Below the pieces are notes generated by a model. The model saw only the letters and a list, made by a program, of their open reading frames with translations. It searched no databases and was not told the DNA's origin. Shown here piece by piece: positions 12,184 to 16,240 of a stretch of DNA of 64,000 bases. The DNA comes from Fimbriimonadaceae bacterium. Lineage in GTDB: Bacteria; Armatimonadota; Fimbriimonadia; Fimbriimonadales; Fimbriimonadaceae. The stretch is from the NCBI GenBank assembly GCA_019638795.1, contig JAHBTB010000004.1, positions 124,001 through 188,000 of the forward strand, given 5' to 3'. The position numbers and the translations under genes are program-made. Numbering within the stretch: the stretch's first letter is position 1; every line of letters begins with the position of its first letter.

Positions 12184-12956
12184 CAGCGTCCCCGTTGGGC
12201 CTCGAACCATTCGTGGGTGAATGCCTTCTCGATCTTGCCGTAGAAGTCCATCACCGCGACGGCCTTAGCCTTCATCAGGGGCTCACACCCCATCGCCTCC
12301 CAGAGGTCTTTGTTGCCGGTCATCAAGGCCTCGGCAGTGACATTGAAGTCTTCCTCTTGGCTGCTGGTCGCGTATTGGTTCAAAAAACCCTTCTTCATCA
12401 ATTCTCGGTCATATTCCAACGACGCCGTGTTCGTCTTTACCGAAGTGAGGCCGTCGCCCCGATAGGTGAATTCGGGGGGAAGGGCTTTCTTCCAGGCTGC
12501 TTCGTCCAACGACGATTTATGGTTGCGCAGGAGCACACTGGAGAACTCGTGGTGGACGGCGCCTTCGATAAAGAGGTCCGTGTAGCCCAGTCCAACCCCG
12601 TCGTCGCATACGTAGACGGTGTCCCGAGAGTTGGTTCCGCCGTATGGATAGCCGAAGAACGACATTGACTTCAAGATCACGACCCGTTTCAGGTTGCGCC
12701 TGAGGAAGTCGTTGGGATATTTGGCCAAGGCCTTCCGCACGTTCTTGACCGCACGCTCCACCTCGCGGCCGTCCAACGCCTTACCGCTGGCGAGGATCGG
12801 GCTCGCCTTCCACGACTCAGGAAACGTCGTGTCGTCGAGGTCGGTGTCGATCCTGACCTGCGAGTCAGGTTCCTGGTAGGAGCGGCGGGTCTCCAACTGG
12901 GCGGCGAGGAGAGACGCCGCCGCGACCACGGCCAAAAGCGAGGTTACGCGTCTCAT
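12183..12956 (-). CDS. Secreted peptidase-like protein with degenerate HExxH
   Basis: A 257-residue protein with a signal peptide (MRRVTSLLAVVAAASLLAAQ). The region FIEGAVHHEFSSVLLRNH (130-147) resembles the zinc-binding helix of Mx1-type putative metallopeptidases, but the motif reads H136-E137-F-S-S140 with serine where the second zinc histidine belongs. The later ATSSQEEDFNVTAEALM segment (about 207-223) resembles the third-ligand region of such families. It may be a pseudoenzyme or use different ligands. The start at 12956 overlaps the guaA stop in ATGA; an ATG six bases further upstream (12962) is also possible. It lies between guaA and hpt with overlaps on both sides. Confidence 0.75.
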   Translation of the reverse strand: MRRVTSLLAVVAAASLLAAQLETRRSYQEPDSQVRIDTDLDDTTFPESWKASPILASGKALDGREVERAVKNVRKALAKYPNDFLRRNLKRVVILKSMSFFGYPYGGTNSRDTVYVCDDGVGLGYTDLFIEGAVHHEFSSVLLRNHKSSLDEAAWKKALPPEFTYRGDGLTSVKTNTASLEYDRELMKKGFLNQYATSSQEEDFNVTAEALMTGNKDLWEAMGCEPLMKAKAVAVMDFYGKIEKAFTHEWFEAQRGR

Positions 12957-14479
12957 TCCCATTCAATAGTGGCGGGAGGTTTGCTTGTCAGGTCGTAAAG
13001 CACCCGGTTCACGCCCTTCACCTCGTTGACAATCAGGTGGGCGACATGCTCGAGGAACTCAAACTCAAGGGGTGCGGCACGTGCCGTCATCGCGTCTTCA
13101 CTCTGGACGGCCCGAAGCACGATAGGTTGTTCGTAGGTCCGTTCGTCGCCCATCACGCCGACGCTCCGCACGTCGAGCAGTGCGGCGTAGCTCTGCCAAA
13201 TGCCCTTGTCCAGGCCCTTGGCCTTCAGCTCGTGGCGGAAGATCCAGTCGGCCTCCTGGACAATGGCCACGCGTTCGGGCGTCACCTCGCCCAATATGCG
13301 GACACCGAGCCCGGGGCCGGGGAACGGCTGTCGGTCGATGACGTCGTCGGGCAAGCCCAATTGGCGACCGACTTCGCGGACCTCGTCCTTGAAAAGCCAT
13401 TTGAGCGGTTCGATGACGTTGAGCCGCATCCAGTCAGGCAGACCACCGACGTTATGGTGGGTCTTGATCTTGGCGGCGTTGGGCGTCCCGCTCTCGATGA
13501 CGTCAGGGTAGAGCGTCCCTTGGGCCAGGAACTTGCAGTCGCTCAGGTCGTCGCGGTGCCGCTCAAAGCACACGACGAACTGCTCACCGATCGCCTTGCG
13601 CTTGGCCTCTGGTTCGGTGACCCCCTTGAGAGCGCCAAAAAACTGTTCGTGGGCCTCGATCACGATGAGGTTTGGGTGGAAGACCCGGGTGAACATGTCG
13701 ATGACCTGTTCGGCCTCACCTTTCCGGAGCAAACCGTGGTCGACAAACACGCACTTGACCTGCTGGCCCAGGGCCTTGGTCATCAGGGCGGCGACGACCG
13801 AACTGTCCACGCCTCCACTCACGGCGCAGAGCACCTGGTCGTCCCCGACTTCCTGCTTGATGCGGCTGACCGACTCCTCGATGAAGTTCGCCGTCGTCCA
13901 ATCACCGGTAAGTCCGGCGATCTCGTAGAGAAACGTCTGGAGGACGACCCGGCCTGACGGGGTGTGGCTGACTTCAGGGTGGAACTGGACGCCGTAATGG
14001 CGCGCGGAAGGGTTCTCGAACGCGGCCACGGGGCATGTCGGCGTGGAGGCGGTGACCCGAGAGCCGTCGGGCACCTTGGTGACCCGGTCTCCGTGGCTCA
14101 TCCACACCGCGTGGTCGGCCATCCGGCTGACCAGGCTCCCTGGGGCGACCGTGGTCAAGTGCCGGTGCCCGTACTCGCGCTCGTCGGAAGACTCGACGCA
14201 ACCACCGCCACGGTGCGCCAAGACTTGGAGGCCGTAGCAAATGCCCAGGGTGGGCACCCCGTCGAGCACAGAGACGTCGATCGTCGGTGCGCCGGGTTCA
14301 AGCACTGACTTGGGCCCGCCGCTCAGGATGACCGCGGCCGGCCTCCGCGACTTGACCACCTCCTCAGCTTTCTGCCACGGGACCATTTCACTGTACACCC
14401 CGAGCTCGCGGACGCGGCGCACGATGAGCTGGGTGTATTGCCCGCCGAAATCGACGACGAGGACAAGTTGATGGTCCAT
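12953..14479 (-). CDS. guaA: GMP synthase (glutamine-hydrolysing)
   Basis: A 508-residue two-domain enzyme making GMP from XMP. The N-terminal class I glutamine amidotransferase has the nucleophile in GICYGLQVLA (C81) and the His/Glu pair in VQFHPE (about 165-170). The ATP pyrophosphatase domain has the SGGVDSSVVAAL P-loop (about 219-230), and the C-terminal dimerisation domain ends in the universal SKPPATIEWE. Start at ATG 14479 gives the normal N-terminus MDHQLVLVVDFGGQYTQLIV. The stop overlaps the peptidase-like gene downstream. Confidence 0.98.
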   Translation of the reverse strand: MDHQLVLVVDFGGQYTQLIVRRVRELGVYSEMVPWQKAEEVVKSRRPAAVILSGGPKSVLEPGAPTIDVSVLDGVPTLGICYGLQVLAHRGGGCVESSDEREYGHRHLTTVAPGSLVSRMADHAVWMSHGDRVTKVPDGSRVTASTPTCPVAAFENPSARHYGVQFHPEVSHTPSGRVVLQTFLYEIAGLTGDWTTANFIEESVSRIKQEVGDDQVLCAVSGGVDSSVVAALMTKALGQQVKCVFVDHGLLRKGEAEQVIDMFTRVFHPNLIVIEAHEQFFGALKGVTEPEAKRKAIGEQFVVCFERHRDDLSDCKFLAQGTLYPDVIESGTPNAAKIKTHHNVGGLPDWMRLNVIEPLKWLFKDEVREVGRQLGLPDDVIDRQPFPGPGLGVRILGEVTPERVAIVQEADWIFRHELKAKGLDKGIWQSYAALLDVRSVGVMGDERTYEQPIVLRAVQSEDAMTARAAPLEFEFLEHVAHLIVNEVKGVNRVLYDLTSKPPATIEWE

Positions 14480-14552
14480 CGTGAAGAGTGCAGTTTGGCC
14501 ACATCGGGGCGTGCCAGGTAGGGACCCTAGTTTCAGCGGAAGGGAAGCTATC

Positions 14553-14576
14553 GGCACAGGTCATGCGACTGGTGTC
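14553..14576 (+). other. Hairpin immediately upstream of the microprotein start
   Basis: GGCACAGGTC (14553-14562) can pair with GACTGGTGTC (14567-14576) at nine of ten positions, counting two G-U pairs, around an ATGC loop. It ends five bases before the ATG at 14582 and could affect translation of the 53-residue gene. The rest of 14480-14581 shows no known riboswitch or recognisable RNA; a GGAAGGG lies about 35 bases before the ATG. Confidence 0.35.
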
Positions 14577-14581
14577 AGGCA

Positions 14582-14743
14582 ATGCTGTCCGGAACAAAGG
14601 TCGCCTTTGCGGTCGTCGGTCTCTCCCTTCTCGCTGTCGCAGCCCAAGCCTCCCAGGCCGCCGTGCAGGCCCCGGCCCCAGGGCAGGTCTTGCCCCTCGT
14701 CGCCGCGTTAGGCTTCGCGGCTTTCCGCCGACGCGGGACGTAA
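14582..14743 (+). CDS. 53-residue secreted microprotein with PEP-CTERM-like tail
   Basis: A small reading frame that encodes a signal-peptide-like start (MLSGTKVAFAVVGLSLLAVAA, 1-21), a very short Ala/Gln/Pro-rich middle (QASQAAVQAPAPGQ, 22-35), and a hydrophobic segment followed by a basic end (VLPLVAALGFAAFRRRGT, 36-53). This hydrophobic-helix-plus-RRR tail has the form of a PEP-CTERM-like sorting signal, though the PEP tripeptide is replaced by APAPG. Practically nothing remains between the two signals. No ideal ribosome-binding site is seen. It is the only coding candidate in 14480-14827 and reads toward dnaB. Function unknown; reality of the gene is moderately supported by its composition. 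Confidence 0.5.
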   Translation: MLSGTKVAFAVVGLSLLAVAAQASQAAVQAPAPGQVLPLVAALGFAAFRRRGT

Positions 14744-14752
14744 CCCGCACCT

Positions 14753-14769
14753 ATCCCCAATGTGGGGAT
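14753..14769 (+). terminator. Small hairpin after the microprotein gene
   Basis: ATCCCCA (14753-14759) and TGGGGAT (14763-14769) form a perfect 7-bp stem with an ATG loop, starting nine bases after the microprotein stop. There is no U-tract, so it may be a weak terminator or an RNA-stability element between this gene and dnaB. Confidence 0.3.
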
Positions 14770-14827
14770 TGTCCTGGGGGCAACGGTACGACGGGGCACC
14801 GTCACGGCGTCCATACTTTGATCCCCG

Positions 14828-16240
14828 ATGGCCCAACGCCGAATAGACATCGTCTCCGAGCACGTGCCGCCCCAGAACAACGAGGCCGAGATGTGCACCC
14901 TTGGGTGCATGGTCATGAGCGAGCGGGCCGCTGAAGAAATCAGGTCAATGCTCACCGAGGACGATTTCTACGTCCCCGCCCACCGGGAGATATTCATGGG
15001 CCTGCGGTCGCTCATGTTGAGTTCGAAGGCGATCGACCTGGTCACGCTGAGGGACGAACTCCAGGCCCGGGGCAAGCTCGCTGAGGTCGGCGGCACGGAC
15101 TACCTCGTCCAAGTGGTCGAAAGCGTGCCCAGTGCCCAGAACGCCCTGCACTATGCCGGCATCGTGCTCGACAAGGCGACTCTCCGGCGGCTAGAGAACG
15201 CGGGCAGGGAGATCATCAGTACGGTCCATGAACCGGAAGGAACGGCCGACGAAAAGGTGAACGACGCCGAAGCGATCGTCTTTGAGGTCGGTCGGAAACG
15301 TCTCGGCAAGTACTTCCGCCCCGTCTCTGCCATTGCCAAGGACTTCTTCAAAGACGTCGACCAACTCATGGAGACGGGCGAGCCCGTCCTGGGCGTTCCT
15401 AGTGGGTTTAGCGACCTCGACGCCGTGACGACGGGCTTCTACGGCGGTGACTTCGTCATCATCGCCGCGCGGCCCGCGATGGGCAAGACGTCGCTGGCGA
15501 TGAACTTCGCCTTGCACGTGGCCCGGCAAGGAGTCGGCAACGTCGCCGTGTTCAACTTGGAAATGACCGGGCAACAGTTGGTCCGACGCCTTATCTCCAC
15601 CATCGCGCAAGTGCCCATGGGCGTCCTGAAACGCTCAAACCTGCACATGAGCGACTACCAAAAGCTCACCGATGCCTGCGAGGAACTGTACAGCCTGCCG
15701 GTGTACATCGACGACTCTTCCGACGTTTCTCCGCTGGAAATGAGAGGGAAGTGTCGTCGTCTCAAGGCCTCCGGCGGGCTCGCGCTCGTCGTGGTCGATT
15801 ACCTGCAGTTGATGCGCGGCAACCGAAAGACGGAGAACCGGGTCCAAGAGATCTCCGAGATCGCCCGTGGGCTGAAGTCACTGGCCAAGGAACTGGACGT
15901 GCCGGTCATCGCCCTCTCCCAGCTCAACCGCGGAGTCGAAGGGCGCGACAACAAGCGTCCGATGCTCAGTGACATCCGTGAATCCGGTTCGATCGAGGCT
16001 GAGGCCGACATGGTCATGTTCATCTACCGGGACGAGTACTACAAGCGGAAGGAGCACGGCGTGATGGAGCGCTTCAACCCAGACGCGGCGGAAGTTGCCG
16101 AACTCTTGATCGCCAAACACCGAAACGGCCCGACCGGGACAGTCCTCCTGGGCTTCCAGCCCGCCTACACGAAGTTCACGTTGTTGGACGAAGGCAGCAA
16201 GGAAGAATATTCCCGCCGGTCGAAGAGCGTGGACGACTAG
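14828..16240 (+). CDS. dnaB: Replicative DNA helicase DnaB
   Basis: A 470-residue hexameric helicase that unwinds DNA at the replication fork. The N-terminal helical domain (VPPQNNEAEMCTLGCMVM, 13-30; to about 130) is followed by a linker and the RecA-like domain with Walker A ARPAMGKTS (214-222), VFNLEMTGQQLVRRLIS, Walker B LALVVVDYLQLM, the SQLNRGVEGRDNKRPMLSDI region with the Q/arginine-finger elements, and the terminal HRNGPTGTVLLGF. Length is standard; no intein is present. It converges with holA, with only one base between the two stop codons. Confidence 0.98.
   Translation: MAQRRIDIVSEHVPPQNNEAEMCTLGCMVMSERAAEEIRSMLTEDDFYVPAHREIFMGLRSLMLSSKAIDLVTLRDELQARGKLAEVGGTDYLVQVVESVPSAQNALHYAGIVLDKATLRRLENAGREIISTVHEPEGTADEKVNDAEAIVFEVGRKRLGKYFRPVSAIAKDFFKDVDQLMETGEPVLGVPSGFSDLDAVTTGFYGGDFVIIAARPAMGKTSLAMNFALHVARQGVGNVAVFNLEMTGQQLVRRLISTIAQVPMGVLKRSNLHMSDYQKLTDACEELYSLPVYIDDSSDVSPLEMRGKCRRLKASGGLALVVVDYLQLMRGNRKTENRVQEISEIARGLKSLAKELDVPVIALSQLNRGVEGRDNKRPMLSDIRESGSIEAEADMVMFIYRDEYYKRKEHGVMERFNPDAAEVAELLIAKHRNGPTGTVLLGFQPAYTKFTLLDEGSKEEYSRRSKSVDD

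Follow-up and report, generated by a model that had tools for sequence, protein, structure and literature searches.

A conserved 53-residue microprotein with a predicted sigma-54 promoter in Fimbriimonadaceae-like Armatimonadota

What a cell might do with a protein made up almost entirely of a secretion signal and a sorting-type tail is the question raised by a short frame in a 64,000-nucleotide stretch of DNA from a Fimbriimonadaceae bacterium (contig JAHBTB010000004.1, positions 124,001 to 188,000), the whole of which is referred to here as the window. The host genome (G000) is 2.7 Mb in size. Named relatives of its GuaA, at 67-74% identity, carry the labels Armatimonadota, Fimbriimonadaceae or Chthonomonas, which marks the host as Fimbriimonadaceae-like within the Armatimonadota. 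A first-pass annotation had described the frame as encoding 53 residues, with a signal-peptide-like N terminus, an Ala/Gln/Pro linker, a hydrophobic segment and an RRRGT end; this description was borne out with exact coordinates, and an ORF check left the ATG as the sole usable start. The gene and its neighbours are:

12953-14479, minus strand: guaA (GMP synthase), the divergent neighbour, assigned by NCBIfam and kept in 14 of 16 members of the family
14582-14743, plus strand: microprotein gene, 53 aa, MLSGTKVAFAVVGLSLLAVAAQASQAAVQAPAPGQVLPLVAALGFAAFRRRGT, called from the frame, its homologues and selection
14828-16240, plus strand: dnaB (replicative helicase), the downstream neighbour, assigned by NCBIfam; it adjoins the gene in this genome and in G107; most members have another neighbour there

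Neither Pfam nor NCBIfam has a family for the microprotein, an Rfam search of 14400-14900 gave no match, and a scan around the gene for sigma-70 promoters and terminators found none. Homologues were sought first with a two-member profile, which brought in more tiny proteins of the same family, and then with profiles built from 7 and 14 members. They are present in 16 species from five genera, all in one family of Fimbriimonadaceae-like Armatimonadota, and are 52-65 aa in length. In the profile searches 15 genomes match at E 3.7e-14 or better, down to 4e-21, while the next same-family matches stand at E 7e-4 or worse, which leaves a clean gap below the members. The sixteenth member (G107, 65 aa) came from inspection of the guaA upstream region and is followed by dnaB, as in the window. 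A genome of the same genus (G001) has a 53-aa homologue with 47% identity in the same place beside guaA. Profile searching of 291 genomes of the phylum gave no convincing homologue outside the five genera; weak single matches (E 1e-3 to 7e-5) were obtained from G226, G142 and G264, which belong to other families of the phylum, and the one in G226 sits where a long transporter-like frame runs. The gene occurs in all genomes of genera g1, g2, g11 and g30 and in three of the four of g16, the fourth of which (G081, 88% complete) yielded neither the gene nor guaA (searched for at E 1e-60). A search of the 450 bp next to guaA for short divergent frames containing two hydrophobic parts recovered the known members, together with few other frames in genomes without the gene. 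A possible second microprotein at G000:C13:53435 was rejected, the frame being without a signal peptide.

Purifying selection on the frame is evident between close relatives. The sequences of G105 and G106 show 20 differences, 15 of them at third positions (dN 0.040, dS 0.377; dN/dS about 0.1), and none of the eight differences between G102 and G103 is non-synonymous; for either pair, when the same changes were placed at random, none of 5000 trials was as conservative. In all eight pairs tested, as few amino-acid changes were seen in 0.3% or fewer of random placements. The first-pass annotation had named a lack of conservation or of selection as the finding that would count against the frame; both are present and it was not refuted. 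Its idea of a genuine cargo-less protein of signal peptide plus tail is likewise upheld by homologues and purifying selection far beyond chance. Judged by these sequence comparisons, the microprotein is a real, conserved gene outside the curated families searched.

Synteny with guaA and dnaB, which the first-pass annotation had proposed as a check, was found for guaA in most members and for dnaB in one further genome. The gene and guaA diverge, about 100 bp apart, in 14 of the 16 members; the FGGQ codon of guaA is 104-155 nt from the microprotein start in 13 measured members and 132 nt from it in G107. The neighbour on the other side is variable, being dnaB, a glycosyltransferase-like gene (identified by eye) or hypothetical genes, and the order guaA-microprotein-dnaB recurs in a second genus in G107 only. 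The possibility of a leader peptide of dnaB was rejected, as dnaB is not adjacent in most members. On a tree of guaA the 15 placeable members share a single supported clade (30 rows; 98/93), and presence of the gene requires 4 changes as against 13.2 with shuffled labels, a strong clustering. Inside this clade G003 has dnaB directly adjoining guaA and no copy of the gene. A single gain followed by losses is plausible. The divergent guaA is a stable arrangement and probably not the functional partner, since in two members (G011 and G016) the gene and its promoter both lie away from guaA. The 28 nt at 14478-14505, at the start of guaA and just upstream, are identical in G000 and G001, compared with 47% identity of the microproteins; this block is probably a guaA control region.

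A conserved element before the gene first became visible on aligning the upstream regions, and was then scored with fixed weights of our own, a simplification of the published sigma-54 consensus. The non-coding features are:

14519-14529, no strand: palindrome TAGGGACCCTA, lying between the promoter and guaA and almost unchanged in G001
14552-14567, plus strand: predicted sigma-54 (RpoN) -24/-12 element CGGCACAGGTCATGCG, with GG at 14553-14554 and GC at 14565-14566
14753-14769, plus strand: 7-bp perfect inverted repeat ATCCCCA/TGGGGAT after the stop, with no T-run, a possible weak terminator

The summed score over the 16 members was 430, against 317.6 +/- 7.3 (maximum 340) in 500 dinucleotide shuffles, a z of about 15 for sequences that share kinship and are not independent samples. 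The GG, the TG and two flanking C are invariant in 16/16, the spacing taking the form GG-N10-GC in 14 and GG-N10-GA in two. Upstream regions of guaA in genomes without the gene score 18-24, as against 23-30 for the members. The element in the window ranks among the lower-scoring ones (24 of 30; p 0.05 against shuffles when taken alone), and the case for it rests on the family. From the end of the element to the start codon there are 11-17 nt in most members (14566-14582 in the window) and 28-37 nt in part of g30; the shorter spacing implies very short leaders and nearly leaderless transcripts. In the window the usual -12 spacing predicts a transcription start at about 14578 and a leader of about 4 nt. 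The presence of the site in G011 and G016, away from guaA, indicates that the element travels with the gene, and RpoN (TIGR02395) was found in 16/16 member genomes.

The first-pass annotation had pointed instead to stems on either side of the gene. Shuffled sequences fold as well as the near-perfect stem at 14553-14576 (z -0.64). The repeat after the stop is exact, but it departs only slightly from shuffles (z -1.62), lacks a T-run and does not occur in the 3' flanks of relatives. By its sequence pattern the conserved 5' feature is a sigma-54 promoter element, lying inside the reported stem, and not the stems themselves. The palindrome TAGGGACCCTA is a possible candidate for an activator site or for part of the guaA promoter. 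A similar element, GGTAAGGAC(T/C)C..GG, is found before the gene in several members from g30, and before the sigma-54-preceded PEP-CTERM gene in L282.

Within the protein three parts may be distinguished:

14582-14650, plus strand: predicted Sec signal peptide, 23 aa, with cleavage placed by rule between AVAAQA and S
14651-14686, plus strand: periplasmic linker SQAAVQAPAPGQ, 12 aa here and 12-19 aa across the family, the least conserved part
14687-14740, plus strand: tail VLPLVAALGFAAFRRRGT, with an invariant Pro, a hydrophobic stretch and a basic C terminus

By rule-based prediction every member (16/16) can be given an A-x-A-type site that satisfies the -3/-1 small-residue rule. The tail has 13 hydrophobic residues followed by basic ones, and the distance from the Pro to the first R/K is exactly 10 residues in every member. 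In the member alignment column entropy is highest in the linker and lowest in the tail and the cleavage site. AlphaFold gave two helices, 3-26 and 36-52 (mean pLDDT 74, pTM 0.32), and says little more.

The reading we favour, and consider rather likely, is that of a single-pass inner-membrane microprotein, made on demand and processed by signal peptidase, whose conserved helix would bind a membrane partner, a function read from sequence features. An enhancer-binding protein, responding to some signal, would activate transcription by RNA polymerase-sigma54. Sec would export the short product, signal peptidase I would cleave it after A-x-A, and the remaining peptide of about 30 aa would be held in the inner membrane, N-out/C-in, by a single short helix with the invariant Pro near its periplasmic face and the basic end in the cytoplasm. 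There, in the manner of other small membrane proteins, it may modulate or stabilise a membrane protein by docking on it; this seems the most likely role because the conserved surface is the helix. Against this reading, the helix is short, at 13 hydrophobic residues, and the sequence is also compatible with an uncleaved two-helix hairpin.

One candidate partner is exosortase. The first-pass annotation had called the tail PEP-CTERM-like, which is true of the window copy to the extent that it borders on the cut-off of TIGR02595 (15.9 or 16.4 bits, curated cut-off 16.0) through a PAP. The relatives are without this PAP, and the model matches just two of 14 members, even at E 10. Pro-Glu-Pro occurs in 0/16 members, as against 30/30 inspected PEP-CTERM tails of the own genome, and membership of the PEP-CTERM group was rejected on the ground that the motif is missing throughout. 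The own genome has about 60 PEP-CTERM matches above the cut-off, in frames of at least 146 aa except for the microprotein, and one copy of exosortase (PF09721), a protein found in 37/37 genomes searched. Tail-only matches of the two-member profile to long proteins were nearly all ordinary PEP-CTERM tails, and none of the long proteins among the inspected profile matches had a tail of the microprotein type. The microprotein has the helix and basic end of an exosortase tail but no Pro-Glu-Pro, which argues against a normal exosortase substrate; it may work with the PEP-CTERM/exosortase system though not a PEP-CTERM protein by the defining motif.

Sigma-54 sites were also sought before other genes. 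An initial scan of 30 PEP-CTERM genes of the own genome for sites within 280 bp gave two matches, near background; enrichment appears only with the full set and with the site required close to the start, in which case four of 66 own PEP-CTERM ORFs have a site scoring at least 26 no more than 45 nt before the start (shuffling gives an expectation of 0.185). One of the own-genome PEP-CTERM sites is a perfect match, and a G001 gene related to a tandem pair of sigma-54-preceded PEP-CTERM ORFs shares this feature. Sigma-54-like sites were observed 17-45 nt before the start at G000:C15:7001-7015 (L282), L291 and L312, with a related gene at G001 L269. Exact matches to TGGCAC-N5-TTGC numbered seven against seven for a reversed control in G000 and 15 against four in G001; being no commoner than the control in G000, single sites are weak evidence. 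In G001 the exact consensus stands 17 nt before a gene judged by eye to be a PilB-like type IV pilus ATPase (L279) and 19 nt before a gene for a 120-aa membrane protein (L271), and both genes are candidate regulon members. In Proteobacteria 99 of 167 PEP-CTERM genes were reported with a sigma-54 motif (PMC1569441), and one PEP-CTERM gene has been proven RpoN-dependent (PMC9850573). Taken with this precedent, the PEP-CTERM sites found here make a link to exosortase physiology possible.

Such a link, in line with the regulator of exosortase that the first-pass annotation had suggested, would be given if the microprotein were an exosortase ligand that escapes cleavage, its PEP-less tail imitating a substrate and occupying or checking the enzyme, and if sigma-54 promoters drove its production alongside that of some PEP-CTERM proteins. 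The geometry of the tail, the nature of the tail-only profile matches, the single exosortase of the own genome, the similarly placed sites before four of 66 own PEP-CTERM ORFs and the classical association of proteobacterial PEP-CTERM genes with sigma-54 (PMC1569441, PMC9850573) all favour this. Yet exosortase is found in every genome searched and the microprotein in five genera only, the two genes are unlinked, and the promoter type precedes a small part of the PEP-CTERM genes as well as the unrelated PilB-like ATPase of G001; we regard this reading as unlikely, if the least so of the alternatives.

Doubtful, and ranked below it, is the stricter proposal of a dedicated, non-cleavable mimic of an exosortase tail under RpoN control, which would plug or tune exosortase or another C-terminal sorting protease. 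We know of no built-in regulator of such a protein-sorting system.

Just as doubtful is a cargo-less substrate of exosortase, or of some other C-terminal protease that recognises an x-P tail signature, giving a tiny surface or released peptide that might act as a signal. The order of signal peptide, short motif, helix and basic end, the invariant Pro at its fixed distance from that end and the borderline TIGR02595 score of the window member would suit such a substrate, but the absence of PEP from the family, when all inspected own-genome tails have it, and of the tail type from inspected long proteins would not. The linker, which would be the product, is moreover the least conserved part, and this also weakens the small surface peptide suggested by the first-pass annotation.

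Less probable again is the uncleaved hairpin with both ends in the cytoplasm, serving as a small membrane subunit or a PspG-like effector of membrane stress. Two hydrophobic segments, basic residues at both ends and the two AlphaFold helices agree with it, but A-x-A-like sites, which a hairpin would not need, can be positioned in every member where the first helix ends, in columns that are among the conserved ones, and the resemblance to PspG is limited to size and promoter class. A decayed PEP-CTERM remnant, as the first-pass annotation had considered, or a chance frame might be argued from the small size and residual tail likeness, but is refuted by the size, architecture, promoter and purifying selection kept in 16 species and can be dismissed.

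The family represents a conserved gene new to Pfam and NCBIfam; its promoter class and its minimal architecture are defined, which makes it directly testable. Should the favoured single-pass microprotein bind exosortase through its helix, it would offer the first handle known to us on direct exosortase regulation; should it not, it would be a clean new family of small membrane proteins in Armatimonadota. The results also suggest that this phylum has a sigma-54 regulon to which a few PEP-CTERM genes belong.

Among known systems, small membrane proteins such as PspG, a short membrane protein under sigma-54 control (PMC2763126 and general knowledge), are alike in size and regulation, but no sequence relation was found and a cleavable signal peptide is predicted here. 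The LPXTG/sortase anchors (TIGR01167) share a tripartite tail and one member matched at E 0.045, although the microprotein has no LPXTG motif and the genome carries an exosortase system instead. MYXO-CTERM proteins, the substrates of myxosortase (TIGR03901), resemble it in a helix followed by an Arg-rich end, with a weak match of 9.0 bits against a cut-off of 20; their signature has an invariant Cys (PMC11980579), whereas no Cys precedes the tail helix in the aligned members. Similar in plan is the PEP-CTERM/exosortase system (EpsH; TIGR02595, PF07589), with a signal peptide, a C-terminal hydrophobic helix and a basic end, defined by a near-invariant PEP, a hydrophobic stretch of 14 residues and a basic terminus (PMC1569441). 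The microprotein differs in having no Pro-Glu-Pro and practically no cargo, and in being one orthologous gene where PEP-CTERM is a tail shuffled among many proteins; a sigma-54 promoter is common to the microprotein and the PEP-CTERM genes of Proteobacteria (PMC1569441).
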